NCBI RefSeq assembly: GCF_036967205.1
Contig: NZ_CP146022.1
Location: 7,998,001-8,062,000 of the forward strand
Source: Streptomyces sp. Q6
GTDB lineage: Bacteria; Actinomycetota; Actinomycetes; Streptomycetales; Streptomycetaceae
Direction: 5' to 3'
Length of the DNA stretch: 64,000 nucleotides
Part shown: positions 35,615 to 61,771 of the stretch, in pieces
Position numbering within the stretch: the stretch's first letter is position 1
How the letters are laid out: the number at the start of each line of letters is the position of its first letter
Notes under the pieces: model-generated
Databases searched by the model: none
Seen by the model: only the letters and a program-made list of their open reading frames with translations
Told to the model about the DNA's origin: nothing
Translations under genes and position numbers: made by a program

Positions 35615-36471
35615 ATGGCCCTGACCACTCGCCGCAGAGCGCTCGGCACCCTCGCCGCCGCACTCGCCACCGGGATCGCCGCACCCGGTCTCGCGCACGC
35701 CGGGGCAGGGCGGCGCGGCCCCGCCCGCTCCCGCGCGCGCACGCCCACAACGACTACGAGCACCCGCGGCCCCTGTTCGACGCGCTCGACCACCGGTTCA
35801 ACAGCGTCGAGGCCGACATCTACCTCGTGAACGGCGAGCTCCTCGTCGCCCACGACCCGATCGACCTCGACCCCGCGCGCACCCTCGACTCGCTCTACCT
35901 CGCCCCGCTCGCCGCCCGCGTCAGGGCCAACCACGGCTCCGTGTACCGGGGGTGGCGCACCCCGCTGCACCTGCTCGTCGACATCAAGACCGAGGGCGCC
36001 GCGACGTACCTCGAACTCGACCGGCAACTGCGCCGCTACCGCGGCCTGTTCACCACGTACGCCCACGGGCGGGTGCGCAACGGACCCGTCACAGCCGTCG
36101 TCTCGGGCGACCGAGCCGCCCGCGTCCCGATGGAGGCGCAGCGCAGCCGCAGCGCGTTCTACGACGGCCGCCTCGCCGACCTCGGCACTGCGGCGCCCGC
36201 CTCCTTCATCCCGCTCATCAGCGACAACTGGGCGAACAACTTCACCTGGCTGGGCACCGGCCCGATCCCTGCGGCCGAGCGCGCCAAGCTGCGCGGCATC
36301 GTCGACGCGGCTCACGCGCGCGGACAGCGCGTCCGGTTCTGGGCGACGCCTGATCTCGCCGGGCCCGAACGCGACGCGGTCTGGGCCGAGTTGATCGCTG
36401 CCGACGTCGACCACCTGAACACCGACGATCTCGCCGGGCTCGAAGCCTTCCTCGAGGCCCACGACCGGTGA
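35615..36471 (+). pseudogene. Secreted GDPD/PI-PLC-fold phosphodiesterase-like protein, frameshifted
   Basis: A twin-arginine signal peptide (TTRRRALGTLAAALA...) starts at ATG 35615 behind GGGAGG, but its frame does not continue into the enzyme. The catalytic part, starting at PLPRAHAHNDYEHPRPLFDAL, is in the next frame to the stop at 36471. Adding one G to the run at 35702-35705 joins signal and enzyme into a protein of about 285 residues. HAHNDYEHP and VEADIYL are metal and substrate residues of glycerophosphodiester phosphodiesterase-fold proteins, and DIKTEG and FWATPD follow. I regard the shift as a probable sequence error, but a real pseudogene is not excluded. Confidence 0.75.
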
Positions 36472-36596
36472 CCGTGGGACGGTGACCCGCTGTTAACACC
36501 CGTTCGGGGGACAGGTCATGCCCCGGTGGGCGTCCTCCGCTGCGTCACACTTGCGGCCGAAAGCCACGGTGTTGACGTGGCGGAGGAGGTTCGACG

Positions 36597-36791
36597 ATGT
36601 CGCTGTCCATTTCCATCGTGCTGTTGCTCCTGATCGTCGCGGTGATCTTCCTGCGCAGCGGTTCCATGAAGCTCTCGCACGCCCTCGTGTGCGTCTTCCT
36701 GGGGTTCCTGCTCGCGGGGACCAGCGCGGCCCCGACCATCCACAACGGCATCAGTGCCACCGCAGGGCTCGTCAGCAGCCTCAACCCGTAG
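36597..36791 (+). CDS. Small two-helix membrane protein, unknown function
   Basis: The 64-residue protein has two hydrophobic segments (about 4-20 and 28-44) with SMKLSHALVCVFLG between them and an extracellular or cytosolic tail rich in Ser/Ala/Thr. GGAGGAGG lies 9 bases upstream of the ATG at 36597, a strong ribosome site, so it is a real gene. Similar short proteins occur singly in many Streptomyces genomes. I know of no function. It stands alone between the phosphodiesterase and a secreted protein gene. Confidence 0.75.
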   Translation: MSLSISIVLLLLIVAVIFLRSGSMKLSHALVCVFLGFLLAGTSAAPTIHNGISATAGLVSSLNP

Positions 36792-36883
36792 CCGCGCCCC
36801 GCGCCCCGCGTGATCGTTTCGGGTTCGTGAACAACTCCCGTATATGCATGGACACTTCAAGGGTGGCGACCTAGCTTCGGCGC

Positions 36884-38461
36884 ATGCCGCCTCGCAGACA
36901 TCTCGCCCGTGCCGCAGCCTTCACCCTGACCCTCGCGGCGGCCTGTGCCGTGCAGCCCCAGGTCGCGTCGGCCGACGAGATCCCCAAGGCCCCGGGCCAC
37001 CGCCTCGTCACGCAGTACGAGGGCGCGCCCGCCGCCCCGCAGCCCGTCCCCGGCAAGGCCCCCGACCAGCACCCGTACCTCGCCGCCAACGGCCGCAGCG
37101 GGATGCACGCGGACGCCTGGGGCAGTGGCACGTACCCCTGGAGCGGCCCCAGCGGGAAGAGTCCGACGGTCAGCAGCGAGCAGATGGCGGCGCTCGGCGG
37201 CGAGTGCGCCACCGTCACGTTCGACCGGGCCGGCCGCATCGTCACCGTCTGCGGCACCTTCACCGGGTTCCTCGTCAAACTCCTCGACCCGCACAGCCTC
37301 GCCACGCTCGCCGAGTACCAGCTCCCGCAGCGGCCCTCCACCGTCGAGGCGATCACCCGGCTCGACTTCGCGAAGATCTTCAAGGACACGTCGGGCGGCG
37401 CCTACTCCTACCTGGACGACCAGGACCGCCTCGTCCTCGCCGACTCCCGGCAGCACATCGTCCGCCTCGCGCACGAACAGGCGGCGGACGGGAGCTGGCG
37501 GTTCGTCGTCACCGACGACTGGGACCTCACCGGGCAGGTCCCCCACGACTGCGTCAGCTGGACGAACCTCTACCCCAGCGGCGAGTGCGACCCCGTCACC
37601 GCCGTGATGCCCGACTGGGAAGGCCGGATCTGGTGGGTGACCCGCCAGGGACGTGTCGGCACCGTCGACCCCGCCACCGGCACCATCCGCTCGATCCGCC
37701 TGCAAGGCGAGGAGATCCAGAACTCGTTCTCCGTCGCGAAGGACGGCGTCTCGATCGTCACCGACCACGCCCTGTACGGGTTCACGGCCGCCCCCGACGG
37801 CACCCCGAAGTCGGTCTGGCGGCAGACCTACGACCGGGGCACCGGCACCAAACCCGGCTCCGTGAACCAGGGTTCGGGCACCACCCCCGACCTGTTCGGC
37901 GAGGGGGAGGACTACGTGGCCATCACCGACAACGCCGACGACCGCATGAACGTCCTCGTCTACCGCCGCGGCGCCGACGTCCCCGACGACGAACGGCTCG
38001 TCTGCAAGGTGCCGGTCTTCGGCTCCGGCGCCTCCACGACCGACAACTCCCTCATCTCCCACGGGAACAGCCTCGTCGTCGAGAACAACTACGGCTACGA
38101 GAACATCACGTCCCTCACCTTCGGCCGCAGCGTCGTCGGCGGCGTCACCCGCATCGACGTACGCGCCGACGGCAGCGGCTGCGACACGGTGTGGGAGAGC
38201 GGCGTGCGCGCCCCCTCCACCGTGCCGAAGCTCTCCACCGCCAACGGGCTGCTGTACTTCTACACGAAGGAGCCCAACTCCCTCGGCGTCGACGCCTGGT
38301 ACCTCACGGCCGTCGACTTCCGCAGCGGTGAGACCCGGTGGAAGCGCCTCGCGGGGACCGGCGTCGCGTACGACAACAACTGGGCGCCCGTGACGCTCGG
38401 CCCCGACGGGACGGCCTACGTCGGTGTCTTCAACGGGCTGGTGGCCGTGCGGGACAACTGA
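36884..38461 (+). CDS. Secreted protein of unknown function, probable beta-propeller
   Basis: The 525-residue protein begins with a Sec signal (basic RRHLAR, hydrophobic core, cleavage near VASADE at residue 31). The rest has repeated VTFDRAGRIVTVCG-like and MPDWEGRIWWVTRQGRVG-like stretches that suggest a six- to seven-bladed propeller. I recognise no catalytic motif. The start is leaderless: TAGCTT lies exactly 6 bases before the ATG. Its stop is 4 bp from the stop of the convergent glycosidase-like gene. Confidence 0.8.
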   Translation: MPPRRHLARAAAFTLTLAAACAVQPQVASADEIPKAPGHRLVTQYEGAPAAPQPVPGKAPDQHPYLAANGRSGMHADAWGSGTYPWSGPSGKSPTVSSEQMAALGGECATVTFDRAGRIVTVCGTFTGFLVKLLDPHSLATLAEYQLPQRPSTVEAITRLDFAKIFKDTSGGAYSYLDDQDRLVLADSRQHIVRLAHEQAADGSWRFVVTDDWDLTGQVPHDCVSWTNLYPSGECDPVTAVMPDWEGRIWWVTRQGRVGTVDPATGTIRSIRLQGEEIQNSFSVAKDGVSIVTDHALYGFTAAPDGTPKSVWRQTYDRGTGTKPGSVNQGSGTTPDLFGEGEDYVAITDNADDRMNVLVYRRGADVPDDERLVCKVPVFGSGASTTDNSLISHGNSLVVENNYGYENITSLTFGRSVVGGVTRIDVRADGSGCDTVWESGVRAPSTVPKLSTANGLLYFYTKEPNSLGVDAWYLTAVDFRSGETRWKRLAGTGVAYDNNWAPVTLGPDGTAYVGVFNGLVAVRDN

Positions 38462-38465
38462 CCGG

Positions 38466-39697
38466 CTACGGGCGGGAGTAGACGCCTATGCCGTTCGCGA
38501 CGGCGCGCTCCGGGGGATCCGTGGGATGGTTGCGGACCGTCACCGTGGCCGCCCCCGGGTCCCGCGACACCAGCGTCGAGGAACCGCCGCCGTCGAGGCT
38601 GAACGCGTCGGTCGAACCCAACGACCGCATCGTGTCGGCGACTTCGGCGATCGACAGACCGGTGCGGTACGCGGGCGCCCCGTCCAGGGCGAGCAGGATC
38701 AGGGTCCGGCCGTCGTCGGCGATCCCGGCGGCGGTCCGCACGGCCGAGGTCCTCGCGTCCAGGCCGGGCAGCGGCGCGCCGTCGCGCAGCACCGGATAGC
38801 CGCCGACCGCGAAGCCGTACGGGACGCGGGAGCCGGCCGCGACCAGCCGGTGCGTGACCCGCACCGGATCGCCCGCGGACAGCTTCCGCAGCCACTGGGC
38901 GCCCGCCTCCCGCCCGACCAGAACCGTGTCGGCGTCCGCGATCGGACCGCCGCCCGGGGTGTCGGCCGATGCCACGACCCGGCCGTGGCGCACCGTGACC
39001 TCGTACGTGTCCGTACTGCACGGAGCCGCCCGCTGGGTGTCCGTGCCGCAGGTGGCGCGCACCCGGGACACGCCGCCCCAGTCCGCCGTGAACGCGCCGA
39101 CCGAACCGACCGGCAGCGCGTACTGGTTGAGCCCGCCGAGCGGGACCGCGTCGTCGCGCGTGCGGACCGACCCGTCGAGCGCCAGGCTGTCGAGCCGGGC
39201 CCGCCGGTCGACCCCCACTCCCAGCACGTCGCGCGTCGAGGTGCCCGGCGGCAGGGCGGGCCCGAACCGCTGCCCGTCCGGGACGGCCGCCTTCAGCGGG
39301 TGTCCGTTCGCGATCGCGGGCCCGACCGCCGCGCCGGTCGCCTCGACGCCCGGGTGCTGGGTCTCCGTGATGTTGAAGAAGTCCCCGTTCACCCCCGCGA
39401 CCGCGCCGCTCGCGTCGGCCATCGACGACACGGTGGCCCGCGCGCCGACCACGCCCGGGTGCAGCAGCCCCACCCGTATGTGCGGGTCGCGCAGATCGAC
39501 CGTGACCACATGGGCGTGCGCCGTGCCCTGGTCGCCGGTATGTCGAACTCCGTGTACGTGACGCCCGCCGCCACCCGGGCCGCGCCCGGATCGGCGGCGG
39601 CCGGCGCCGCCCCGCCCAGCACGGTCCCCGCCAGTACGCCCGCGACCGCGAGGGCCGCCAGAACACTTCTGCGTCTCTTGCCAACTCTCGTCTGCAT
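38466..39697 (-). pseudogene. Secreted phosphodiester glycosidase-like (NAGPA domain) protein, frameshifted
   Basis: The signal peptide (MQTRVGKRRRSVLAALAVAG..., ending near AAAAD) is encoded from ATG 39697 and its frame holds to VTYTEFDIPATRA. The rest of the protein, from HAHVVTVDLRDPHIRVGLL onward, is in another frame. Restoring one G to the run opposite 39526-39528 fuses them into about 410 residues. GVNGDFFN, ADWGG, VGGYPVLRDG and FSLDGGGSSTLV are the conserved NAGPA (phosphodiester glycosidase) motifs, a family that in animals removes GlcNAc from lysosomal enzymes and in bacteria is linked to exopolysaccharide. Substrate unknown. Confidence 0.75.
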
Positions 39698-39735
39698 CAA
39701 GGGAGTTCAGCAGACGTCCGGAGCCCCGTCGATGG

Positions 39736-40092
39736 CTATGTACCGACCAGCCGGGAACGGATCAGGAAACGTACGCCCTCCGGCGCCTCCAGCGAGAAGC
39801 CGCTGCCCCGGCCCTCGACCACGTCCACGATCAGACGCGTATGACTCCACACCTCGTACTGGCTCTTCGACATCCAGAACGACACCGGCTCCGCCATCCC
39901 CTCCACCGCCAGCTCCGCGAGCAGCACGTCCGAGGCACCGGTGCGGAACTCGCCCTCCGGGTAGCACATCGGCGCGCTGCCGTCACAGCAGCCGCCGGAC
40001 TGGTGGAACATCAGCGGACCGTGGGCGTCCCGCAGCCGCCGCAGCAGGTCGGCGGCCTCGGGCGTCAGCTCCACGCGGGGTACGTCGGTCAT
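39736..40092 (-). CDS. DUF779 family protein
   Basis: The 118-residue protein has the conserved FHQSGGCCDGSAPMCYPEGEF segment (here split as SGGCCDGS plus PMCYP), with three cysteines that could bind a metal, and the C-terminal RFLIRSRLV. DUF779 genes usually sit beside NAD-dependent aldehyde dehydrogenase genes, but none is present here. The ATG at 40092 is used because upstream in-frame sequence overlaps the divergent gene's promoter. Biochemical role unknown. Confidence 0.85.
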   Translation of the reverse strand: MTDVPRVELTPEAADLLRRLRDAHGPLMFHQSGGCCDGSAPMCYPEGEFRTGASDVLLAELAVEGMAEPVSFWMSKSQYEVWSHTRLIVDVVEGRGSGFSLEAPEGVRFLIRSRLVGT

Positions 40093-40166
40093 GACGGGCA
40101 GTGAAGCCCCAGGGACGTTGCGACCACGTTGCACGTCTGGAGGCCCTTCGCGCATAGGCTCCTCGC

Positions 40167-40517
40167 ATGGAACAGAGGGAGATCATCCTGCGGGCGATCG
40201 GCGTACTGACCGAGACGCAGGAGATGGTGCGCAGACTGGGGACGGGTGAGGCACTCGACACCGACGTCAATCAACTCGGCAAGCTGGTCTCGGAGGTGTT
40301 CCCGACCATCGAGATCCCGGCCGGAGCCACCGCCGAGGAGGCGGCCGAGCTGACGATCGCGGCCCTGATGCCGGCGAGCGTCTCGCTCGTCGAGGCGTTC
40401 GCGTTCGTGTTCATGCAGCTCGCGAAGGTGCACGACGAAGGACGCGGCGACGTCACGTCCTCCGAGCTGCTCCAGGAGATCGCGCTGCGGATGTCCGAGC
40501 CCGGCCCGCAGGAGTGA
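40167..40517 (+). CDS. Conserved hypothetical protein
   Basis: This is a 116-residue, acidic, probably all-helical protein (MEQREIILRAIGVLTETQEMV... to SSELLQEIALRM) with no motif that I recognise. TAGGCT lies exactly 6 bases before the ATG and there is no ribosome site, indicating a leaderless transcript. It is divergent from the DUF779 gene by 74 bp. Confidence 0.75.
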   Translation: MEQREIILRAIGVLTETQEMVRRLGTGEALDTDVNQLGKLVSEVFPTIEIPAGATAEEAAELTIAALMPASVSLVEAFAFVFMQLAKVHDEGRGDVTSSELLQEIALRMSEPGPQE

Positions 40518-40529
40518 CGCGGGATCGCG

Positions 40530-41684: not shown

Positions 41685-41928
41685 GGAGTCGTTCTGTGAG
41701 CGGACGGGGTGGGACCCAGTATGGGCCGCCTTCGCCCCGGACGGTGCAGGCAGGGGGTGCCCGGCGCGCCATGTCCGGTGCTTCCTGTCACGGTTCGCCA
41801 GGTGTGAGAGGAATCTTCGTGGAACCCGTGTGCACAGAGGTCTCAGAAGTGATGCACATGATGTGGCCGCTCCGGGCAAGGCGTCCTCGGGAGTGCGACA
41901 GGTCGGTAAGGAAGGACAGCGGTGATGG

Positions 41929-42354: not shown

Positions 42355-42383
42355 CGCGGACACCTGCCGAAAAGGCCCGCGAA

Positions 42384-42429
42384 GTCGTTGCGAGAACGAC
42401 TTGTTTGCGGTGCGGGGGCCGGGGCAAAC
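42384..42429 (+). promoter_or_regulatory. Two hairpins upstream of the sigma factor gene
   Basis: GTCGTT-GCGAG-AACGAC (42384-42400) forms a perfect 6-bp stem with a 5-nt loop. Immediately after, GTTTGC (42403-42408) pairs with GCAAAC (42424-42429) around a 15-nt loop. The pair lies between the anti-sigma and sigma genes. The first stem could terminate the anti-sigma transcript. GTTT at 42403 also fits the -35 box of SigB-type promoters. Confidence 0.5.
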
Positions 42430-42561
42430 GGGAGTCGTGCTTCGGACAGGAGGCGCGTTCGCGGGAGAGGTGTGTCCTTTCCCGGTGGACGGCCGCTTCG
42501 TCGGTCGTTCCCGGCTCCCGCGGTGACCTGCCAGCAGTTATCCGTGGAGGAGCGAATCTTC

Positions 42562-44315: not shown

Positions 44316-44329
44316 CACGGGGTCCGGTC

Positions 44330-45117
44330 TCAGCGGCCGACCGTGCCCAGGAACCGGATGTGCGGACGGTCCGCGGGGCCCGGCCGACTGACCTCGGCGC
44401 GTACGCCGTAGACCTCGGCGATGAGCTCCGTGGTCAGGATGTCGCCCGGGGCGCCCGCGGCCACCACCCGGCCCCGGCACAGGACGACGACCTGGTCGCA
44501 GTACGCGGCGGCCAGGTTCAGATCGTGCAGGGCGACGACGCTGGTCAGGTCGAGCCCGCCGATCAGGTCCAGCAGGTCCAACTGGTGCTGGATGTCGAGG
44601 TGGTTCGTCGGCTCGTCGAGCAGCAGCTCGCGCGGCTCCTGCGCCAGGGCGCGGGCGATCTGCACGCGCTGCCGCTCCCCGCCCGACAGCGTGTGCCACA
44701 GCCGGTGGGCCCGGTCGGCGAGCCCACTGCGCTCCAGGGCGGCCCGGACCGCCGCCTCGTCCCCGCCGACGCGGCCGACCAGGCGCGGCGGTGCGGCACC
44801 CGGCCGAGACGTACGACATCGGCGACCGTCAATTCGACCTGGGTGTCGGCCTGTTGCTCCACCATCGCGATGCGCCGGGCGGCCGTCCTGCGGCGCACCG
44901 AGGCGAGCGGGTCGCCGTCGAGGGTGACGACACCGCCGCTCGGGGCCAGCACACCGGCGAGCAGCCGCAGCAGGGTCGACTTGCCCGAGCCGTTCGGACC
45001 GAGGAGTCCGGTGACGGTGCCGGGGCGCGGGGCGAGGCTCACCCCGTCGAGGACGAGCGCCCCGCCGGGCGACCAGGACACGCGCTCCGCGCTCAGCCCC
45101 TTCCCGGAGACAGTCAC
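44330..45117 (-). pseudogene. btuD: BtuD/FecE-type ABC ATPase of the B12-riboswitch operon, frameshifted
   Basis: The GTG at 45117 overlaps the permease stop as GTGA. The first frame has Walker A GPNGSGKST and the Q-loop (VEQQAD) and breaks after HRRAWSAASAG. The second frame has QIARALAQEP, Walker B LLLDEPTNHLD, the switch VALHDL and the end of the protein. The signature LSGGERQR is also in the second frame. Adding one G opposite the C-run at 44761-44764 repairs a normal 262-residue ATPase. The riboswitch upstream of the operon indicates cobalamin or a corrinoid as substrate, although such proteins are often labelled F420-0 transporters. Confidence 0.85.
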
Positions 45118-47234: not shown

Positions 47235-47395
47235 GAGGCTGCCAGCAGGTCTTCGGACTCGGGGTCGTCCGCGCGAAGCGCCTTCCCGGGCCGGTGGCCC
47301 AGTGGCAGTTGCTCCGCCCGTCACCCTCACCGCTGCGCGTCAGTTCCGGGTTCCCACCGGATTCCCTGACCCGTGTGCGTCGTTGAACGCACAAA
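47235..47395 (-). ncRNA. Cobalamin (adenosylcobalamin) riboswitch
   Basis: Read on the minus strand, this leader shows the conserved cobalamin-riboswitch core in order: a CAGGGAATCCGGTGGGAA-like element with the paired CCCGGAACTG (47326-47372), a following CGCAGCGGTGA, the B12-box-like GCCACTGGGCC (47296-47306) and a 3' GGGAAGGCGC and AGACCTGC portion (to 47235). It is 74 bp upstream of the binding-protein start, leaving room for a terminator or ribosome-site sequestering stem. High adenosylcobalamin should shut the importer off. A -10 box GATAAT at 47416-47421 (minus strand) fits as the promoter. Confidence 0.9.
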
Positions 47396-47453
47396 GGTAC
47401 GACTGGCTCGGCGAAATTATCACAGGCCGGACGTCTCGGGCCGAGCGGACCCA

Positions 47454-47553
47454 GGGCCTGCCCGGCGGATCAGGTCGCGGCTCGGGTGGCCCGTGCCCTG
47501 CTGCGCCGGCGTGCCGGACCCCGCGTCCACGACACGATCGGCCGGGCAGGCCC
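47454..47553. repeat. 13-bp perfect inverted repeat between the B12 operon and PLC fusion gene
   Basis: GGGCCTGCCCGGC (47454-47466) is inverted at GCCGGGCAGGCCC (47541-47553) with a 74-nt loop. The right arm touches the stop codon of the PLC fusion gene. It could end that leftward transcript before the riboswitch promoter. Confidence 0.5.
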
Positions 47554-49718
47554 TAGGGGGCCGGTGTCCGGCGCTCCGCGTTGAGCACGGCCACCGCACC
47601 CCGCGCGTCGCCGATCGTCGCGTAGTCGACGGCGACGAAGGTCACCGGTCGGCCGCGTTCGCGCTCGCAGCGGCGGGCCCGGTCGAGCACGAACCTGCGG
47701 GTGTTGACCGTACCGGCGTCCAGGCGGCTGCCGCCGTCGATCGTGATGAAGTGGTTCAGCAGGAAGAGCCGCTTGTCGTCGCCGCCGCGGTGCGCCACGC
47801 AGTTCATGTCGCCGGGGGAGCGGAAGGCGAACGGGGTCTCCATGCCGTACCGGTAGAAGTTCCGGTACCAGGGAGCGGGGCCGTCGGCCTGTTCGGCGAA
47901 GACGACGAGCCGGCGACCGCTGTCGATCATGTCGCCGAGCGTCGGCCAGGGCCGTGCGGGATCCGGGTCGGGCGTGTGGACCAGATCGTCGAGACCGGCC
48001 TCGGCGAACGCCTTCGCGGTGTCCTCACCACTGATCGCGTCCTGCACGATGAACGTGACCACATCGGTGGGATGGGCCCGCATCCAGTCACCGATCCCGC
48101 GCAGCGCCGCCACCAGCTCGACCGCCCCGGCCCGGCACACCGCGTGGCACAGCCACAGCCCGTCGCGCGGCGGGTTGATCGCGTTGACCGCCGACCTGAC
48201 CAGGGCCTGCTGCGCGGGGGTGAAATCCGAGTCGGAGAGCCGCCCGGCGATCTCGTCGGGCCGCTCCCACCGGTACGTGTCGATCTGGAGGGCCCGCACC
48301 CCGTCGTCCAACTGCGCGGTGATCCCCGGGTCCTGGAGCGGCCCGATGAACCGGTCGACCGTCGTCGACATGGCGTTGTGCGAGGTCAGGTACGCCACCT
48401 CGTCGTAGCGCCGGTCGCACAGCTTGGCGCTGCCCTGGCACACGCGCGGCCCACCGGGACTGATCAGCGGCGGCAGCGCGACCATCCCGGCCACCGCCAC
48501 GGCGGCCGCGCCCAGCCCCGCCCCGAGGAATCGCCGCGACGGCGCCGTCCGCGCCCGCTCCGCGCGCAGCCGCAGCCCCGCCGCCACCAGCAGCACCCCG
48601 ACGGCGACGGGCACCAGCGCCGCGACGACCGCGGTGGCGGTGAGCCGGTCGACGGCGGTGCCCTGCACGTCGTCGACCAGCCGGGCCAGGCTCGGCGGCC
48701 ACGAGGCGGGCGGGTCGACCAGGCGCCCGTCGGCCGACAGCCGCGCCGCGCCCACGGCCAGCAGCGTGAGGAGACCACCTGCGACGAGCGGCACGCCGAG
48801 CCGCGTCAACCGCCGTCCGGGCTGCGGCGATCCGGCCCACCACAGCACGGCGAGGGACGCCACGAGCAGCGCGGCCGCGAGTCCCTCGACCAGACCGAGC
48901 CCGACCGCCGTGTACGGACGCACGTCGTGCAGCGTGTCGAGGTCGTTGCCCGACTCCCGCAGCGCCGCGCCCAGGTCCCAGGTGCCGTCGTCCACGAGCT
49001 GCCGGAGCTGGGCGACCGCGCCCCGCGTGTGCTCCGACAGGGCGGCGGGCGCCACGGCGGCCAGCGCGGTCGCGACGTCCCCGTCGGCCAGCGCCGTCTC
49101 CACCTCGGGTCGCAGCGCCCCGCGCTCGTTCTCCGCGACCGCGGACAGCAGCGCGTCCGCGACCCGGTCGGCCTGCTCCTCGGTGAGCGGGAGCGCCGGT
49201 ATCCCCTCGGGGGCCCGCCCCGCGGACAACTCCCGCAGGGCGTCCGACAGATCGGCGGTGAACCGCTCGAAGTCCGGCTCCGGGCTGCGCTGCACCCCGG
49301 CCACGAGGTCACCGAAGTACGTCTGCGCGAGATCGTCGAGGTGGGCGAGGACCGGCCGCAGATCGACGGTGAGGTCGAGGGAGCCGCGCGTGCCGTTGAG
49401 ATAGCCGACCACGGCCTGGATCTGCTCCAGCGTGAGGTCGCGCACCGTTTCCGGCGGCAGCACCAGCTTGATGTTGGAGGTCACCTGGGCCTCCGGCACG
49501 GCGAGGCCGGCGAGCAGATCACGCGTGAGCGGGGCCGCCCGGGGATCCACCAGGACCTCGTTGTACAGCCGGTCGTAGGCGTGCTCCTCGTCGAGGACGG
49601 ACGCGTGGAAACCCGGGTCGAGGACGGTGCCGCGCACCGTCGCCGTCGTGAGGACGGTCAGCGTGGCGAGCGCCGCCACCACGCAGGCGACGGCACGCGC
49701 CGCGAACCGGGCGTCCAC
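47553..49718 (-). CDS. Membrane protein fused to a PI-PLC-like phosphodiesterase domain
   Basis: The 721-residue protein has a signal-anchor (residues 8-28), a long extracytoplasmic alpha-helical region (30-260), four or so membrane helices (270-420), and a C-terminal PI-PLC X-like domain from about 440. In that domain YLTSHNAMSTT carries the first catalytic histidine region, DDGVRALQIDTYRW the metal/substrate part and LWLCHAVCR the second histidine. The combination of a helical sensor-like domain, membrane helices and a phosphodiesterase domain is unusual. Its target lipid or polymer is unknown. The gene lies 6 bp downstream of arcA, so it may be co-transcribed. Confidence 0.78.
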   Translation of the reverse strand: MDARFAARAVACVVAALATLTVLTTATVRGTVLDPGFHASVLDEEHAYDRLYNEVLVDPRAAPLTRDLLAGLAVPEAQVTSNIKLVLPPETVRDLTLEQIQAVVGYLNGTRGSLDLTVDLRPVLAHLDDLAQTYFGDLVAGVQRSPEPDFERFTADLSDALRELSAGRAPEGIPALPLTEEQADRVADALLSAVAENERGALRPEVETALADGDVATALAAVAPAALSEHTRGAVAQLRQLVDDGTWDLGAALRESGNDLDTLHDVRPYTAVGLGLVEGLAAALLVASLAVLWWAGSPQPGRRLTRLGVPLVAGGLLTLLAVGAARLSADGRLVDPPASWPPSLARLVDDVQGTAVDRLTATAVVAALVPVAVGVLLVAAGLRLRAERARTAPSRRFLGAGLGAAAVAVAGMVALPPLISPGGPRVCQGSAKLCDRRYDEVAYLTSHNAMSTTVDRFIGPLQDPGITAQLDDGVRALQIDTYRWERPDEIAGRLSDSDFTPAQQALVRSAVNAINPPRDGLWLCHAVCRAGAVELVAALRGIGDWMRAHPTDVVTFIVQDAISGEDTAKAFAEAGLDDLVHTPDPDPARPWPTLGDMIDSGRRLVVFAEQADGPAPWYRNFYRYGMETPFAFRSPGDMNCVAHRGGDDKRLFLLNHFITIDGGSRLDAGTVNTRRFVLDRARRCERERGRPVTFVAVDYATIGDARGAVAVLNAERRTPAP

Positions 49719-49724
49719 GCGGAC

Positions 49725-50984
49725 TCAGAAGTCCACGGGGTCGCGCACGATCGGGCACGTCATGCAGTGCCCGCCGCCGCGCCCGCGGCCGAGCTCGGCG
49801 CCGACGATCGTGATCACCTCGACGCCGGCCTTGCGCAGCAGCGTGTTGGTCTGGGTGTTGCGGTCGTACGTGAACACGACGCCCGGCTCGACGGCGACGG
49901 CGTTGTTGCCGCTGTCCCACTGCTGCCGCTCGGACGCGTACACGTCGCCACCGGTCTCGATGACCCGCAGCCCGCCGCTCAGGCCCAGGGCCGAGGCGAC
50001 GACGTCGACGAACGGCGTCGTGCCCTCGTCGGTGATGTGCAGGCCGGGCGCCTTGTCGCTCGGACGCAGCGAGAACGTGTGCACCGAGTCCATGATCCGC
50101 GGGTACAGCGTGACGATGTCCCGGTCGGCGAACGTGAAGACGGTGTCCAGGTGCATCGCCGAGCGGAGCTTGGGCATCCCGGCGACGATGACGTGCTCGG
50201 CCGCGCCGTTCTCGAACAGGGCCGCCGCGACCTGGGTGACGGCCTGCCGCGAGGTGCGCTCGCTCATGCCCATCAGGACGACGCCCTTGCCGACCGGCAT
50301 GATGTCGCCGCCCTCGAACGTGGCCTGCCCCCAGCTCCGCTCGGGGTCCCCCCACCACACCGTCGACCCCACGAAGTCCGGGTGGAACCCGTACACGGCC
50401 TTCATCAGGAGCGTCTCGTCGTGCCGCGCCGGCCAGGACAGCGGGTTGAGCGTGAGCCCCCCGTACAGCCAGCAGGTGGTGTCACGGGTGTAGAGCGTGT
50501 TGGGCAGCGGTGGCATCAAGTACTCGCGTACGCCGGTGGATTCCCGCGCGAGCGACACATAGGCGGAGCGGTGGTCGTCGGGCAGGTCCGTGGTCGCGAG
50601 ACCGCCGATGAGGTACTCCGCGAGCTGCCGCGGCTCCTGCGCCTCCAGGAAGGCACGGGTGTCGTCGATGAGACCGACCCCGACCTGGTTGGCGACGATC
50701 TTGCGGTCCAGGAGCCAGGACTTCGCCTCGGGGATCGCCATCGTCTGCGCGAGCACCTCGTGGAGCTCCACGACGTCGACGCCGCGCCCGCGCAGCTTGT
50801 TGACGAAGTCGGCGTGGTCGCGCTGCGCGTTCTCCACCCACATGACGTCGTCGAAGAGCAGGTCGTCGGAGTTGGTCGGGGTGAGTCTGCGGTGCGCGAG
50901 CCCGGGTGCGCAGACGAGGACCTTGCGCAGCTTGCCCACCTCGGAGTGGACGCCGTAGGACGCGGAAGCGGGGGTGTCGGTCAC
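49725..50984 (-). CDS. arcA: Arginine deiminase
   Basis: ArcA hydrolyses L-arginine to citrulline and ammonia. The 419-residue product has the guanidino-modifying fold, with [26 protein letters not shown] for the catalytic histidine, and the nucleophile Cys407 in GGGHCMTCP near the C-terminus. The next gene upstream encodes an arginine/ornithine antiporter (39-bp gap), so both act together. The other ADI genes (ornithine carbamoyltransferase, carbamate kinase) are not in the window. The start is ATG 50984. Confidence 0.95.
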
Positions 50985-51023
50985 GGAGTGCCTTCCAGGG
51001 GGTGCGGGGCTCGGGTGAGCGGC

Positions 51024-52460
51024 TCAGAGGCTGATCCAGCCGGCGGCCAGGGCCACGACGCCGAGCACGGCGCCGACGACGGAGACGACGAGGATGACCA
51101 GCTCCCGCGGGGAGAACAGGCGTCGGCCCTGCTCCCTGCGGGCCATCACGAACAAGATCGTGGCGGGGGCGTAGAAGATGAACGACACCAGGACGAACTT
51201 CAGCCCGGCCGCGACGAGCATGAACAGCGTGTAGAGCGCGGCGACGGCCGCGATGGTCAGCTCACGGTTCGAGGTGCGGCCGCCGTCGGTGAGCGGATCG
51301 GAGCGGGTCCCGAGCTTGACGGCGAACCCGGCCGCCAGCAGATACGGGATGAGCGAGAGCGCACTGGTCAGATCGAGCGCGAAGTTGAACGCGTCGTCCG
51401 AGAACGCGGTGATGATCAGGACCACCTGCGACAGGGCCGTCGTCAGCATCAGCGCGGGCACCGGCACGTCGGCGCGGTTCGCGCTGCGCAGGAAGCGCGG
51501 CATGTCGTCGTCCTTGGCGGCGACGAACAGTACCTCGGCCGCCATCAGCGTCCAGGCCAGATAGGCGCCCAGCACCGACACGATCAGGCCGACGCTGATG
51601 AACACCTTGCCCCAGGTGCCGACCGCCTCCTCCAGGACGCCGGCCATGGACGGCTGGCGCAGTTCGGCGATCTGTTCCATGGGCATGATCCCGTAGGACA
51701 CGATGACCACGGAGGCGAAGACGGCGAAGACGCTGAGGAAACCGAGGACGGTCGCCTTGCCGACGTCGGAGCGCTTCTTGGCGTGCCGCGAGTACACGCT
51801 CGCGCCCTCGACGCCGAGGAAGACGAAGACGGTGGCGAGCATCGTGCCGCGAACCTGGCTGAACAGCGAGCCCGCGTAGTCGGCGCCGCCCCAGTTGTCG
51901 GCGAAGACGTCGGCCTTGAAGCAGAACAGCGCCAGCAGGACGAAGACGAGGATCGGGACGACCTTGGCCACGGTGACGATCTTGTTGATCGCCGCGGCCT
52001 CCTTCACGCCGCGCCGGATCATCAGGAAGAACGCCCACAGGCCGGCCGAGGAGATCACGATCGCGAGCGCCGTGTCGCCCTCGCCGAGCGCCGGCCAGAT
52101 CGCGCCCACCGTGGACATGATCAGCACCCAGTACGTCACGTTGCCGACGCAGGCGCTGGCCCAGTAGCCGAACGCGGAGAAGAAGCCGAGGTACTCGCCG
52201 AACCCGGCCTTCGCGTACGCGTAGACACCCGCGTCCAGATCGGGCCTGCGCACGGCCAGGGACTGGAAGACGAAGGCGAGCATCAGCATGCCGGTGCCGG
52301 CGATGGCCCACGCGATGAGCGCGCCCGCCACGCCGGTCTCCTCGGCGAAGCGCCGGGGGAGCGAGAACACGCCCGCGCCGACCATCGAACCCACGACCAT
52401 GGTGGTCAGCGTGAACAGCGGCAGTTTGGCCGTGGTGGGGGTGGTGGTGGCCTTCTCCAT
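51024..52460 (-). CDS. arcD: Arginine/ornithine antiporter-type APC transporter
   Basis: The 478-residue transporter of the APC superfamily basic-amino-acid antiporter group has about 12 membrane segments. VVGSMVGAGVFSLPRRFAEETG at the start is the consensus substrate-binding helix of the family and GVEGASVYSRHAKKRSDVG the conserved cytoplasmic loop. It probably exchanges arginine for ornithine or citrulline, matching the arcA product. The ATG at 52460 is preceded by GAGGAAGAC. It is the first gene of the operon with arcA. Confidence 0.9.
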   Translation of the reverse strand: MEKATTTPTTAKLPLFTLTTMVVGSMVGAGVFSLPRRFAEETGVAGALIAWAIAGTGMLMLAFVFQSLAVRRPDLDAGVYAYAKAGFGEYLGFFSAFGYWASACVGNVTYWVLIMSTVGAIWPALGEGDTALAIVISSAGLWAFFLMIRRGVKEAAAINKIVTVAKVVPILVFVLLALFCFKADVFADNWGGADYAGSLFSQVRGTMLATVFVFLGVEGASVYSRHAKKRSDVGKATVLGFLSVFAVFASVVIVSYGIMPMEQIAELRQPSMAGVLEEAVGTWGKVFISVGLIVSVLGAYLAWTLMAAEVLFVAAKDDDMPRFLRSANRADVPVPALMLTTALSQVVLIITAFSDDAFNFALDLTSALSLIPYLLAAGFAVKLGTRSDPLTDGGRTSNRELTIAAVAALYTLFMLVAAGLKFVLVSFIFYAPATILFVMARREQGRRLFSPRELVILVVSVVGAVLGVVALAAGWISL

Positions 52461-52498
52461 GTCTTCCTCACGGTCGCGCTGCGGAGCCAACGGAACGC

Positions 52499-52528
52499 TC
52501 GGGCACACAGTCTTCTCTGAGTGCCCGA
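52499..52528 (-). promoter_or_regulatory. 8-bp hairpin in the arcD leader
   Basis: TCGGGCAC (52499-52506) and GTGCCCGA (52521-52528) are perfect inverted copies with a 14-nt loop, 39 bp upstream of the arcD start. A TGTATCCGTACA site with TGTA/TACA half-sites is at 52549-52560. Either could take part in control of the arginine genes or the divergent lipoprotein gene. Confidence 0.4.
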
Positions 52529-53819: not shown

Positions 53820-54910
53820 TCAGGCCGGGTACGCGTGTGTCTGCGTCGCCTTGACCGACGCCCACACGGTCACCCCCGGATGCAGCCCGAGTTCGGCGGC
53901 GGCGACGGTCGTCAGATCCGCCGCGAGCGGCAGCTCACCGGCGAGCGCGGCCCGGATCCGGTCGCCGTGCGTCTCCATGCCACTCACCTCGCACCGCCAC
54001 AGATTGCGGGCGCTCGCACCGGTCGGCCGCTCCCGGTGCAGCGTCACGGCGCCGGGTGGGAACGCGACGAACACCGGTCCGTCCAACTCCTCGGTCGTGG
54101 TGATCGCGGGACCGCCGTCGTCGACCCGCACGGTGTGGCCCTCGGCACGGCCCCGGTACAGATTGAGGCCGACGAGCTGGGCGATGTAGTCGGTCCGCGG
54201 CCGCCGCGCGATGTCGGACGGCGCGCCCTCCTGGACCACGCGACCGTGCTCGATGACGACGAGCCGGTCGGCGAGCACCATGGCGTCCAGCGGATCGTGC
54301 GTCACCAGCACCGCGACGGCCTCGAACTCGGCCAGATGCCGCCGGAGCTGGGCGCGCACCTCCAGACGCGTACGGGCGTCGAGGGCGGCCAGCGGCTCGT
54401 CGAGCAGCAGCAGCCGGGGCCGGGTGGCGAGCGCGCGGGCGAGAGCGACGCGCTGCGCCTGACCGCCGGAGAGCCGGCCCGGCTTGGCCCCGCGTGCGCG
54501 GCGAGACCCATCCGGTCGAGCCAGTCCGCCGCCTCGGCACGGGCCTGCGCCTTGGTCCTGCCCTGGCAGCGCGGCCCGAAGGCGACGTTGTCGAGGGCGG
54601 TCAGGTGCGGGAAGAGGAGGTAGTCCTGGAAGACCACGCCGACGGGCCGTGACTCGGGTGGTGTGCCGTCGAGTTCGGTGCCGTCCAGGCGCAGTCTGCC
54701 CCCGTCGAGCGGGGTGAGGCCCGCCAGGGCGCGCAGGGCGGTGGTCTTGCCGGCGCCGTTCGGGCCGAGCAGGGCGACCACCTCGCCGGGCGCCGCGGTC
54801 AGCGCGATGTCGAGGCGGAAGGCACCCCGGTCGACGACGAGCCGCGCGTCGAGCCCCTCGGCCGGGTCCTTGCGCACCGGTTCCGTCGGTACGGGCTCGG
54901 TGGAGGTCAT
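53820..54910 (-). pseudogene. modC: Molybdate ABC transporter ATPase ModC, frameshifted
   Basis: The first frame from ATG 54910 has Walker [10 protein letters not shown] (about 48-56), Q-loop [15 protein letters not shown] and [11 protein letters not shown]. The following [15 protein letters not shown] (split: LSGGQAQR), Walker [12 protein letters not shown]-like sequence, [11 protein letters not shown] and the C-terminal TOBE domain ([20 protein letters not shown], in part) are in another frame. Adding one G opposite the run at 54488-54491 joins them into a normal ModC of about 363 residues. The ATG overlaps the modB stop as ATGA. I regard the break as a probable sequence error. Confidence 0.88.
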
Positions 54911-56564: not shown

Positions 56565-56587
56565 CACGGAGTACTCCCTCACCTTCT

Positions 56588-56648
56588 CGCGCAGGACGCG
56601 AGAACTTCTCTACGAGCCGGGACAGGGCCGATGTCCTGCGCGGATCAT
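56588..56648 (-). promoter_or_regulatory. modA promoter with 10-bp inverted repeat
   Basis: On the minus strand a -10 box TATGAT (56643-56648) is followed directly by CGCGCAGGAC (56633-56642). Its inverted copy GTCCTGCGCG lies at 56588-56597 after a 35-nt loop. The repeat lies in the start region of the mRNA, 24 bp upstream of the modA start codon. It could be an operator for the nearby MerR-TOBE regulator or a leader hairpin. Confidence 0.5.
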
Positions 56649-56795
56649 ACTGCCGCAGATGCGAGGGGGAAGTCTCCTGTCTCATCGCATGAGCGTCCCT
56701 GGAGATCCAAAGGCTTGGTATGTGCGTTAGTACGGGATCCAGTGGGGCTCGGTGGTGCGGGGCTGGAGGGGCCGGCCGTGGGCCGGTGTCCCCGC

Positions 56796-57191
56796 TCAGG
56801 TGCGGTCGATGTGCACGTTCGTCGACTTCACGCGGGCGGTGGCCTCCATACCGACCTCCAGGCCCAGTTCCTCCACCGCCTCCCGCGTCAGCAGCGACAC
56901 CAGACGGTGCGGCCCCGCCTGGATCTCCACCTGGGCGGCGACATCGCCGAGCTTGATGGCGGTGACGATGCCCGGGAACGCGTTGCGCACCGACGTGTAG
57001 GAGGCGTCCTCCTCGCTGTGCACGCTCTTGGCGAGCTCCACGGAGAAGGCGGCGAGATCCTTCCCGTCGACGAGGCGCCGCCCGCTCTCGTCGCGATGGG
57101 TCGCCACCCGGCCCGCGTCCGCCCACCGTCGCGCGGTGTCGGGGCTCACGCCGAGCAACCTGGCCGTCTGGCCGATCGTGTATGACTGCAT
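56796..57191 (-). CDS. MerR-type HTH / TOBE molybdate-responsive regulator
   Basis: The 131-residue protein joins an N-terminal excisionase/MerR-like helix-turn-helix (MQSYTIGQTARLLGVSPDTARRWADAGRV, split: LLGVSPDTARRW) with a C-terminal TOBE/mop domain (SYTSVRNAFPGIVTAIKLG ... EVGMEATARVKSTNVHID). This layout replaces ModE in many actinobacteria: molybdate bound at TOBE changes DNA binding. The gene is next to modABC. The ATG at 57191 is chosen over a TTG three codons upstream, since TATCTT lies 7 bases before it and no ribosome site is visible, fitting a leaderless mRNA. Confidence 0.87.
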   Translation of the reverse strand: MQSYTIGQTARLLGVSPDTARRWADAGRVATHRDESGRRLVDGKDLAAFSVELAKSVHSEEDASYTSVRNAFPGIVTAIKLGDVAAQVEIQAGPHRLVSLLTREAVEELGLEVGMEATARVKSTNVHIDRT

Positions 57192-57316
57192 GGTCGCCAA
57201 GATAGGCCAGGTGAAAAAGGGGACTGACAGATCAACTTCGGCGTGGTTACGATGCCGGGGATGACGAACTTCTCCTCGTACCGATTGGGGGATTCATTCG
57301 CGAACGGTGAGTGCTG

Positions 57317-58732
57317 ATGGCACCTCACACCGCGAATGAGATTCCGCCCCGCCTTCTGATGTGGCAGCGCGTACGTGAGTACGCCGTGCCACCGTCCATG
57401 ATCGAGACCGCGACCGCACGCCGTGCGGTCGGCGACTGGGCCGGCGCCTGCGCCGCCGCCCGTATCGATGTCGACCTCGATCTGCGCGCCGTGCGCCACC
57501 GCCACGGCACCGAGACAGCCACCCGCCTCCGCGCGGAGCTGCGCAGTCTGGCACCGGATCTGCTGCGCTGGCACATGCCGAGAACCGCCCCCGACGGGCG
57601 ACTGCGGCCCGGCCTCACCCTCGCGCTCGCCCGCTGTCGCGGCTCCGGGCCGACACCGCCGTGGTTGGTGGTGCGGACACCACCCGCTCGGGCGGACGCC
57701 GGTCAGCGGATGTCCCTCGCCCTGTGGGACGGGGCCGACGACCACGCCCCCTGGCACCCGCATCCGCATCCCGACCGGCGGTTCCGGCTCGATCTGCACC
57801 GGCACCTCTGGGACGCGGGCCACGCCGGCGACCTGGCTCGGCGGTGCGGAGCGGGCCCGGCACCGCGCGAACCGGCGGTGCCCGGCGTCGACGTGGATCC
57901 GAACGCGGGCTGGGCCGTGGGCAGTTGGGCCCGCGAGGCCGAGCTGCTGCTGCGCGCCGCGGGTCGGCCGCGCGGCGCGTTCACCGTACGGCTCGGGGCC
58001 CGCGACCGCGCCGTGCTCGAACTCGTCGCTCCCGACGACAGCCACGCCCCGACGCTCCGGCCGCCGCGCCGGACCCCGCCGCCGCAGGACGTCGCCGGGC
58101 TCGCGGTCCTGCCGGAGGCGGCGGCCCGGGTCCTGCCGGACCTGGAACTGCTGCGGGCCGGTCTGATCGCGCCCGGACGGTTGCATCCGCTGGTGGCGCG
58201 GGCCTTGACCGGCGCGGGTGCGGCCCAGGGGCCGCGCCCCGACGCCGGTCCCGAGCCGCCCGGCGATCCGCACCGGGTCGACTGCCGCGGCGAGATCCAC
58301 CGGATCGCGCTGCGGGACGGAGTCCTGACCGCGGTCGACCACGACGCGGACCAACTGCGCCGCGAGGAAATCCTGGTGGCGCTCGGCGGCCCCGGGCTGC
58401 CCTGCCTCCGGGCGATCGACGCGGTGCACCGCGATCCGCAGGCGCTGCCCGCGGTCCGTGAACGCCTCGGCCACGGCGACATGGAGGGAGCCCTGGCTGT
58501 CGTCGAGGGGCTCCTCGGATCCGGCGCGGTCCTGCGCGACGGGCCGCTGCGCGACGAACTCGCCTCGGCCGCGGCCCGCCGCGTCGACCACGGGCTCTTC
58601 CGCGCGGGGCTCACCGACGGGGGCCCGGCCGCACGGCAGGGGACCGGACGCCCGCGGATCGAGCGCCGGACACCACTTGCGGTGCGCCGTAAACGGGGGA
58701 GCCGGGCGCGTCCTCGTACCGGTCAGGTGTAG
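57317..58732 (+). CDS. Unknown protein of the MoxR/VWA gene set
   Basis: This is a 471-residue protein with no motif I can name. Residues 1-110 are Arg-rich helices (RLLMWQRVREYAVPPSMIE). A His-Pro cluster HPHPHPDRR lies near 146-156, followed by a globular middle, a Pro-rich linker (about 290-310) and a helical C-terminus. It has no membrane segment. It sits directly before a MoxR ATPase and an HExxH/VWA gene, an arrangement that recurs in actinomycetes, so it may be their partner or substrate. The last 6-7 residues are encoded by the first copy of the 86-bp tandem repeat, so the original end of the gene may have been replaced. Confidence 0.7.
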   Translation: MAPHTANEIPPRLLMWQRVREYAVPPSMIETATARRAVGDWAGACAAARIDVDLDLRAVRHRHGTETATRLRAELRSLAPDLLRWHMPRTAPDGRLRPGLTLALARCRGSGPTPPWLVVRTPPARADAGQRMSLALWDGADDHAPWHPHPHPDRRFRLDLHRHLWDAGHAGDLARRCGAGPAPREPAVPGVDVDPNAGWAVGSWAREAELLLRAAGRPRGAFTVRLGARDRAVLELVAPDDSHAPTLRPPRRTPPPQDVAGLAVLPEAAARVLPDLELLRAGLIAPGRLHPLVARALTGAGAAQGPRPDAGPEPPGDPHRVDCRGEIHRIALRDGVLTAVDHDADQLRREEILVALGGPGLPCLRAIDAVHRDPQALPAVRERLGHGDMEGALAVVEGLLGSGAVLRDGPLRDELASAAARRVDHGLFRAGLTDGGPAARQGTGRPRIERRTPLAVRRKRGSRARPRTGQV

Positions 58733-58925
58733 CTGGTCGCGGTCGGTCGGGGCTCGCCTGCCCGACTGGCTCGACCAGTTCGCCTGGCTGGGTTCGTTCT
58801 CGTACCGGTCGGTGGGAGCTGGTCGCGGTCGGTCGGGGCTCGCCTGCCCGACTGGCTCGACCAGTTCGCGTGGCCGGCTTCGTTCTCGTACCGGTCAGGT
58901 GTAGCTGGTCGCGGTCGGTCGGGGC
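58713..58925. repeat. 86-bp tandem repeat, about 2.5 copies, each with an inverted repeat
   Basis: Copies begin at 58713, 58799 and 58885 (at ctcgtaccggtc). The first two are complete and differ at a few bases, and the third breaks off near 58925. Another 21-bp piece of the unit end recurs at 58997-59017. Every unit has CTGGTCG and its inverted copy CGACCAG about 33 bases apart with an inner GTCGGGGC/GCCCGAC pair, so each could form a long GC-rich hairpin in RNA. The array lies at the 3' end of the unknown gene and before the moxR gene. Confidence 0.85.
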
Positions 58926-59178
58926 CAACTGGCCGACCGGCGGTAGCGGTTCTCCTGACCCGCCTGGTCGGGCCGGCACAACTGGACGTTCCACAGGACC
59001 AGTTCGCCTGGCTCGGCCCATCCACGTACTGATCAGACCCGGCGAGGTGCAGGCCGCCCCGCCCTCCGTCCCGCCACCGTGTCCCGCACATCCAGACATG
59101 CACACCTCCGCATTCCCACACGCCTTCCTCCCCGGAACGCCGACACGGCGTTCCCTCGACTCTCCCCAGGTGATGCCC
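58733..59178. other. Non-coding gap before the MoxR gene
   Basis: This 446-bp gap holds most of the 86-bp repeat array and then about 160 bp of sequence with no further repeat except a partial unit end at 58997. Frames in it continue the moxR frame upstream but translate the repeat and lack a ribosome site, so I regard it as leader sequence. A promoter was not clear. Confidence 0.55.
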
Positions 59179-60447
59179 ATGACGCCCAGCACCCTCCTGA
59201 CCGCTCCCGCCTCCGCTCCGTCCCTTGCCCCCGGCTCGGACCTCTCCGTGGCCGAGGATCTGCTCCGGCTGCTCCGTACGACGAGCACCGAACCCCGGCC
59301 CGACGAGCAGCTCGAAGCGCTGACTCTGGCCGTCGCCGCCGACCTGCCCGTCCTGCTGTGGGGCGAGCCCGGCATCGGGAAGACCGCCGCTCTGACCCAG
59401 CTCGCGGACTCGCTCGACCTGCCGCTGACGACGGTGATCGCCAGCGTGCACGAGCCGTCCGACTTCTCGGGACTGCCCATCGTCGGCGACGACCCGGCGG
59501 TGCGGGGCGTGCCGATGGCACCGCCGCAGTGGGCCGTGGAACTCGTACGGGCCGGGCGCGGACTGCTCTTCCTCGACGAACTGTCCACCGCCACCCCCGC
59601 CGTGCAGGCCGCGTTGCTGCGGGTCGTCCTGGAGCGGCGCGTCGGCGCGCTCCAACTCCCGCCCGGCGTCCGGATCGTGGCCGCCGCCAACCCGCGCGCG
59701 TCGGCTGCGGACGGCTGGGAGCTGAGCCCGCCGCTGGCCAACCGTTTCGTGCACCTGTACTGGGTGCACGACCGCGACGTGGTGGTGCGCGGCCTCGGCG
59801 GCGTCTGGCCCCGGGCCGAACTGCCCCGCCTCGAACCGGAGCGGCTGCCCGAGGCCGTGGCGCTCGCCCGGCGCGCGGTCTGCGGTTTCCTCGCGGCGCG
59901 GCCGACGCTCATCCACCGGCTGCCGAACACCGAGACCCGGCGCGGCGGCGCCTGGCCCTCGCCGCGCAGTTGGGAGGCCGCGCTGACCCTGCTGGCGTTC
60001 GGCACGGCGGCCTCGGTGTCCCGGGACGTCATCGCGCTGCTCGTGCGCGGCGCGGTCGGCGACGGCCCCGGCCTCGAACTCCTCGCCCACATCGACCGGA
60101 TGGACCTGCCGGACCCCGAGACCTTCCTCGCCGACCCGGCAACCGCCGACCTTCCGGAACGCGGCGACCTGCGCCAGGCCGCTCTGGAGGCGGTCGTCGC
60201 CGCCGTTGGGGGACGGCCCGAGCGGGCGCGCTGGGAAGCGGGCTGGGCCGTCCTCGTCCGGGCCCTGGAGACCGGCGCCCCCGATCTGCTGGTCGCCCCG
60301 GCGACCGCGCTGGCCGGGCTGCGGCGCGACGACTGGGAGGTACCGGAGACGGTGCAGCGCCTGGCCGGTGTCATCGGTCTCGCGCAACGGGCGCAGCGCT
60401 CGGTCGGCCGCGTCGAGGCGGGCCGCGCGAACGGGGTGCGCCGATGA
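59179..60447 (+). CDS. MoxR-family AAA+ ATPase
   Basis: The 422-residue protein of the MoxR/RavA branch of AAA+ ATPases has Walker A GEPGIGKTA at 62-70, Walker B LLFLDE at 128-133, sensor-1 Asn170 (AAANPR) and the arginine finger in NRF (R188). Such ATPases act as chaperones that remodel or activate VWA-domain partners, often for metal insertion. The ATG at 59179 is picked because AGGTG lies 6 bases before it, with ATG 59173 as an alternative. The gene overlaps the HExxH/VWA gene as ATGA, so the two are made together. Confidence 0.88.
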   Translation: MTPSTLLTAPASAPSLAPGSDLSVAEDLLRLLRTTSTEPRPDEQLEALTLAVAADLPVLLWGEPGIGKTAALTQLADSLDLPLTTVIASVHEPSDFSGLPIVGDDPAVRGVPMAPPQWAVELVRAGRGLLFLDELSTATPAVQAALLRVVLERRVGALQLPPGVRIVAAANPRASAADGWELSPPLANRFVHLYWVHDRDVVVRGLGGVWPRAELPRLEPERLPEAVALARRAVCGFLAARPTLIHRLPNTETRRGGAWPSPRSWEAALTLLAFGTAASVSRDVIALLVRGAVGDGPGLELLAHIDRMDLPDPETFLADPATADLPERGDLRQAALEAVVAAVGGRPERARWEAGWAVLVRALETGAPDLLVAPATALAGLRRDDWEVPETVQRLAGVIGLAQRAQRSVGRVEAGRANGVRR

Positions 60448-61771
60448 CCGGGCCCACCCGGCGCCCGCTGCCCCGCCCGATGGCCAGGCCCGCGCCGCCG
60501 CGCCCGGTGCGAGCCGTGCGTCCCGCGCCGCCCCCCGGGCCGGGCGAGCCCCGCATCCCGCTGGACATGGAGAAGTTGCTGGCCGCCCGGCTGCACGCGG
60601 TGAAGGTCCGCCCCTACCTGGCCGACGCGCTCTTCGCGCTGCACGTGATCGAGGACCCGACCGTGCCGACGATGGCCGTCGACGTGCACTGGCGCTGCTA
60701 CGTCTCGCCGGGCTTCGTGGCGCTGATGCCGGTGGAGGAACTGGCGGGCGTCTGGGTGCACGAGGTCTCCCACCTGCTGCGGGACCACCACGGGCGGGGC
60801 GAACGCCATGCCCGCGAGCACGAGGAGTTCGGGCCGGGGGAGCGGCTGCGGCGCAACATCGCCGCCGACTTCGAGATCAACGACGACATCTACGGCGACG
60901 GGCTGCCGCTGCCGGTCGGCGCTGCGCTGCCGTCGATGCTGCGGCTGCCCGACGGGCTCCTGATGGAGGAGTACCTGCGGGCGGCGTCGATGTCCGGGCT
61001 CGCCGCGGACCTGGCCTGGCTGGACTGCGGCAGCGGCGCCGACGGACAGCAACGGCCCTGGGAGCTGGGGCCCGAGGGTGCGAACGGGCTGACCCGGCAG
61101 CAGCGGGACGCCGTCCGCTTCCGTGTCGCGGAAGGCATCAGGGGGCGCCCGGGGAGGCGCCGGAGGGGTGGCGGCGGTGGGCGCAGGACGCGTTCCAACC
61201 GCCGCAGCCCTGGCGGCAGTTGCTGGGGTCGGCGATCCGGTCTGCGGCGGGCGCGCCGGGTGTCGGCGAGGACCACACCTACCGCCGCCCGTCCCGGCGC
61301 TCCGCGAGCCTGCCGGGCGTGGTGCTGCCGAGCCTGCGCCGGACCCCGCCCCGCGTCTGCGTCGTCATCGACACGTCAGGCTCGGTGAGCGACGCCGAAC
61401 TGGGCAGCGCGCTGATCGAAGTGGCGGCCATCTCCCGCGCCGTGGGCGGGCGGCGCGACCTGGTCTCGGTCCTCTCCTGCGACGCGGCGGCCGGGATCGC
61501 CGTCCCGATCTGCCGCGCCGAGAGCCTCGAACTGATCGGAGGCGGCGGCACCGACCTGCGCTCCGGATTCGACCGGGCCCTGCGCTCGCGTCCCCGCCCC
61601 GACGTGATCGTCGCCCTGACCGACGGCCAGACCCCCTGGCCGTCCGCGCCACCCCCGTGCCGCACCGTCGTCGGCCTCTTCCCCCGCCCGACGCGCGGCA
61701 CGGACGAGGACGATCCCGACTACGTCCCCGACTCCCCGCCGACCTGGGCACGGGTGGTGACCATCGGCTGA
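60444..61771 (+). pseudogene. HExxH metallopeptidase-like / VWA domain protein (DUF2201 type), frameshifted
   Basis: From ATG 60444 the first frame codes a Pro/Arg-rich start, then a metallopeptidase-like domain with H106-E-V-S-H110 and H115-H116, up to RVAEGIRGRPGR. The second frame holds the rest: AQDAFQPPQPWRQLLG, the VWA domain with its MIDAS motif DTSGSVSDAE, VLSCDAA and TDGQTPWP. Adding one G to the runs at 61141-61145 or 61151-61154 joins them into a normal protein of about 442 residues. The HExxH domain plus VWA in one chain, next to MoxR, is the DUF2201-type arrangement. It starts within the MoxR stop. Confidence 0.83.

Follow-up and report, generated by a model that had tools for sequence, protein, structure and literature searches.

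Single-base losses split five genes in a Streptomyces window and recur across the genome, most likely as errors of the assembly consensus

Why should five unrelated genes within 64,000 nucleotides of one chromosome each be broken into two reading frames? The question is raised by a stretch of Streptomyces sp. Q6 (positions 7,998,001 to 8,062,000, here the window), which lies on the 8.57-Mb contig of a two-contig, 8.95-Mb genome with an estimated completeness of 99.99% and a guanine plus cytosine (GC) content of about 72%. An earlier reading of the sequence alone had noticed the five broken genes, each repaired by one added G, and had favored under-called homopolymers in the assembly over programmed frameshifting or gene decay. 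We compared the window with orthologs, with samples of the rest of the Q6 genome and with related genomes, and find that single bases are very probably missing from an under-polished assembly consensus and that, on this evidence, the breaks are not new biology. The five genes are as follows.

35615..36471, plus strand: GDPD-like gene, split; seen in three-frame translation, a GDPD_2 match in the downstream piece and length modulo 3.
38466..39700, minus strand: NAGPA (phosphodiester glycosidase) gene, split near 39526-39528; seen in translation, a downstream NAGPA Pfam match and alignments.
44330..45113, minus strand: iron/B12-type ABC transporter ATPase gene, split near 44761-44764; seen as a model frame switch, in ABC_tran matches and in alignments.
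53820..54910, minus strand: modC-like ABC ATPase gene with a TOBE domain, split near 54488-54491; seen as a model frame switch, in ABC_tran matches and in alignments.
60452..61771, plus strand: DUF2201_N metallopeptidase-like/VWA (HExxH/VWA) gene, split near 61141-61154; seen as a model frame switch, in DUF2201_N and DUF2201 matches and in alignments.

The sequence quoted in the earlier reading is correct at all five coordinates, and both translation and ortholog alignments agree that each gene is split. Three-frame translation places the protein halves of each gene in two frames of one strand, and GC content by codon phase reveals a clear same-strand frame switch at three of the sites and a less sharp one at the two near gene starts. 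When the pieces were scanned apart against Pfam, both halves of three genes matched one family: ABC_tran 1-79 and then 84-137 in the B12-type ATPase, ABC_tran 3-95 and then 106-137 in modC, and DUF2201_N 5-134 and then 215-271 (slightly below the family cut-off) plus DUF2201 in the VWA gene. The Pfam match of the NAGPA and GDPD genes is confined to the long downstream piece.

Orthologs of four of the five genes were sought in 150 genomes of the genus (Q6 included), and of the fifth in 21 genomes (Q6 and 20 relatives). The setting is that of the genus, as 72 of the 80 kept loci matching one window protein are from Streptomyces, with a top match of 90% identity in S. violens. We counted alignments spanning the break site; some loci overlap, so that not all of these counts are independent. 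Q6 is locally one base short in 27/27 alignments of NAGPA (overall length modulo 3, 25/27), in 7/10 of the B12-type ATPase (overall 9/10), in 19/19 of modC (overall 14/19) and in 18/19 of the VWA gene (overall 16/19). We could narrow the GDPD break no further than to about 35700-35725, in the poorly alignable region of the signal peptide and the start of the mature protein; by overall length modulo 3, Q6 is one base short in 35/36 alignments. Since the Q6 DNA is one base short of most aligned Streptomyces orthologs, intact copies of the five genes are widespread in the genus. A plasmid search with the B12-type region gave partial matches only and was of no use.

To compare the window with the rest of the genome, we implemented a hidden Markov model (HMM) scan, in which a phased order-4 Markov coding model, with 554 kb of long open frames of Q6 and its relatives as training data, is decoded by a Viterbi algorithm that allows a change of frame inside a gene at a cost. 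To some extent the decoder itself imposes open frames on the resulting pieces, and we give their openness no weight as evidence. In the window the scan called three of the five sites (B12-type ATPase, modC and VWA) and gave no call at the GDPD and NAGPA breaks near gene starts. Across 33 scattered stretches of Q6 (704 kb, window included) we identified 31 mid-gene switches in 593 kb of coding sequence, with 16 of the 33 stretches affected. Twenty-eight stretches from seven relatives yielded 10 mid-gene switches in 470 kb coding. The comparison is sharpest in a syntenic 400-kb pair, where Q6 has 26 mid-gene switches in 344 kb coding vs 0 in 351 kb for the relative G111. A further 400 kb of Q6 contains 25 switches in 347 kb coding.

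The switch densities of the three Q6 samples are thus 5.2, 7.6 and 7.2 per 100 kb coding. Counted without duplication (stretches L060 and L025 lie inside the 400-kb blocks and were excluded from the pool), Q6 has 80 switches in 1.249 Mb of coding sequence, 68 of them loss-type and 12 gain-type. The scan recovered 264 of 314 random single deletions simulated in the G111 block, with 1 false call over two runs. Corrected for detection, losses occur at about 6.5 per 100 kb coding, which extrapolates to some 500 genome-wide if the sample is representative, and the five losses of the window are about as many as a 64-kb stretch of Q6 would be expected to carry. Since densities elsewhere are comparable, the window is not special, and an event specific to the window or to an operon is ruled out. 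Broken genes elsewhere, named from their pieces, are likewise unrelated and ordinary: recN, a dnaE2-like polymerase, an alcohol dehydrogenase, cobB, cobC, kdgD, a glycosyltransferase, an sbcC-like gene and a polyprenyl diphosphate synthase-like gene.

We also aligned Q6 to G111 directly (263 kb, 85% identity), counting isolated one-base gaps with good flanks and omitting those lacking clean flanks (5 rows). Within coding sequence Q6 is short at 13 such gaps and G111 at 0; outside coding calls Q6 is short at 16 and G111 at 9. Ten of the 13 coding gaps fall within 16 nucleotides of an HMM call, and the remaining three have no call within 4 kb. Conversely, 17 of the 26 HMM calls in the 400-kb block have a G111 alignment spanning the break, and Q6 is locally one base short modulo 3 in 17/17; the remaining 9 have no alignment across the break.

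The sequence-only reading held that the missing base is always a G in a coding-strand G-run, and this does not survive the larger sample. We localized 60 of the 68 loss-type calls, dropping 8 with a wide interval or a short flank before runs were counted. GGGG is present at 25/60 breaks vs 14/260 simulated random deletions (p = 1.3e-11) and CCCC at 21/60 vs 29/260 (p = 3.5e-5). No localized break interval holds both, 14/60 hold neither, and only 3/60 lack a run of at least three of any base, vs 106/260 in the simulation. The breaks are therefore strongly associated with short G/C runs, with both bases of the coding strand involved, and at 25 G vs 21 C a coding-strand G rule is rejected for the genome sample. 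As both kinds of run are hit genome-wide, the five coding-strand G-runs out of five in the window are small-sample luck, together with the choice of a G-run within an ambiguous interval.

Nor do the orthologs of the window genes generally carry G where Q6 is short. The aligned column in relatives is G in 4/22 for NAGPA, 3/9 for the B12-type ATPase, 3/19 for VWA and 1/19 for modC, where placement of the column is ambiguous. Because relatives are mostly non-G at these four of the five sites, some of the Q6 G-runs may be products of the base loss. In the 400-kb pair, Q6 has a merged run at several sites where that of the relative is interrupted; at positions 474 and 96283 the relative has the longer run. 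In simulation, the loss of a base between GGG and G leaves GGGG in 0.98 of detected breaks. A general rule that the lost base is interposed between two runs was dropped, because two of five relatives have a longer G run at L060:16767 and because both GGG (27/73) and GGC (423/560) codons of Q6 in this context often align to GGC in G111.

Four of the HMM switches, three loss-type and one gain-type, are crowded into 2 kb at L296:8564-10550 (G000:C1, about 2248.6-2250.6 kb). At the gain-type call (L296:9492), Q6 is locally one base short of 8/8 relatives shown and, across the whole 500-base query, falls 2 short modulo 3, so that this call may represent two losses.

Taken together, the few gains, the concentration of losses at short runs of G and of C alike, the similar densities in three genome samples and the intact genes in relatives make consensus error the most likely explanation. 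The assembly would drop one base at some 6 or 7 positions in every 100 kb of coding sequence, usually within or beside a short G/C run, and each loss would shift the frame by one and split an ordinary gene in two. On this account the organism has the bases and the consensus lacks them, the probable cause being a long-read consensus that lacked adequate short-read polishing; the assembly is probably long-read-only. That one-base losses recur genome-wide, with none called by the HMM in the syntenic relative, strengthens the earlier preference for assembly under-calling. The same reading's homopolymer signature stands as far as under-called bases are concerned and needs refinement in its details: the losses are not restricted to G, and at single sites the lost base need not be a base of the run.

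Several observations weigh against consensus error or against its simplest form. The error, the platform and the polishing state are what we infer, and do not come from reads. The relatives are themselves not free of frame-switch calls (the 10 in 470 kb above). Plain homopolymer under-calling predicts a longer run in relatives, and they have no longer run at 171057 and 209532 of the 400-kb pair and mostly none at the break sites of the B12-type ATPase, modC and VWA genes. When one base is removed from runs of four in simulation, GGGG remains at only 0.21 of detected breaks, below the observed 25/60; this fraction lies between the simulated 0.21 and 0.98, and we take the losses to be a mixture of types. 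No universally essential gene was found among the broken genes that could be named, essential genes not having been checked directly. Finally, mismatches in the pieces downstream of breaks fall more often at codon positions 1 and 2, relative to position 3, than they do in intact genes (ratio 0.382 vs 0.264, p = 0.010), hinting at relaxed constraint.

This last ratio bears on whether the deletions are real and recent, in a mutator strain or one that is losing many genes, with the five genes as young pseudogenes. Relatives are intact at the five sites, as such decay would also have it, repair genes (recN, sbcC-like) are among those broken, and the downstream pieces have a raised ratio of amino acid-changing mismatches before matching for identity. 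Once matched, the ratio is 0.382 vs 0.305 (p = 0.135, 16 broken pieces), which is not significant, and that of upstream pieces (0.277 vs 0.264) is near the intact level. All of the extrapolated breaks, some 500, would moreover have to be young, and they are scattered over unrelated genes at the densities given above. We consider gene decay of this kind very unlikely. Slightly less likely still is that the bases are truly absent from a strain with a genome-wide bias to one-base loss at short G/C runs, which would make Q6 an early mutator lineage with hundreds of very recently broken genes.

The odds are longer yet against the genes being read through their breaks by programmed −1 ribosomal frameshifting, or by transcriptional slippage, on G runs to yield full-length proteins. 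The −1 direction of the shift and the GGGG at several sites would be mechanically compatible with it. Programmed frameshifting fails, however, for want of conservation at the site: relatives have the genes in a single frame, most of them carrying the five genes one base longer modulo 3, and no frame switch is called in the 351 kb of G111. In addition, CCCC accompanies nearly as many breaks as GGGG, and the affected genes are unrelated. The earlier view that both frameshifting and decay are the less likely explanations is thus upheld, since both are poorly supported here. It is equally improbable that some of the HMM calls made beyond the window reflect ordinary overlapping genes, or artefacts of codon usage, in place of losses. 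The 9 of 26 calls without a spanning alignment and the 12 of 80 that are gain-type leave room for some of these, whereas false calls are rare (1 over two random simulation runs, and 0 in G111), the gain-type call at L296:9492 is compatible with two losses, and the five window sites are supported by orthologs and not by the HMM.

Users of the Q6 genome should be aware that assembly error has probably split some hundreds of its genes, and absences, pseudogenes and short open reading frames in this assembly should not be taken as biology. A completeness score is blind to such splits; they are detected by a frame-switch HMM when a syntenic relative serves as the control. Neighboring cobalamin genes at L263:5448-9650, one cobB-like and one cobC-like, are both broken in the assembly, and a metabolic reconstruction could wrongly miss both. 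A few mid-gene switches also occur in same-genus relatives (L038, L040, L015, L021, L055 and others), several beside C-runs, and other assemblies from the genus may likewise contain low-level errors of this type. Within the window, a 1715-amino-acid open frame at 47373-52520 on the plus strand runs antisense to minus-strand segments of the codon model (47553-52484) and is probably an artefact of high GC content, not a gene.

How do these losses compare with known systems? With programmed −1 frameshifting, the Q6 breaks share the direction of the frame change and, at some sites, the G run; they differ from it in being unconserved in relatives, in falling in unrelated genes and in occurring also at C runs.

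Published assemblies offer a closer parallel. Short-read correction changed the long-read-only assemblies of three Streptomyces at 70, 295 and 335 positions, the vast majority of the changes being single-base insertions in homopolymers (PMC6923854), and another Streptomyces assembly retained 205 indels, almost all of them in homopolymers of G or of C (PMC4832174). As described with Kastor, gene-fragmenting deletions occur after homopolymers two to eight bases long, the majority after those of four to five, and a small fraction remove a non-repeated base (PMC12007338). That profile comes from one long-read draft (Pss508, 59% GC) in which A/T runs dominate, unlike Q6, at about 72% GC, in which G/C runs dominate. 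Compared with the numbers in PMC6923854 and PMC4832174, our estimate for Q6 is somewhat higher (about 500 coding breaks, extrapolated), and at several Q6 sites relatives lack a longer run. Q6 otherwise resembles those assemblies: they are high-GC Streptomyces with single-base differences, mostly in G/C homopolymers, numbering tens to hundreds per genome and expected to frameshift ordinary genes. Base loss of this sort is nothing unusual in a high-GC genome whose assembly was insufficiently corrected.

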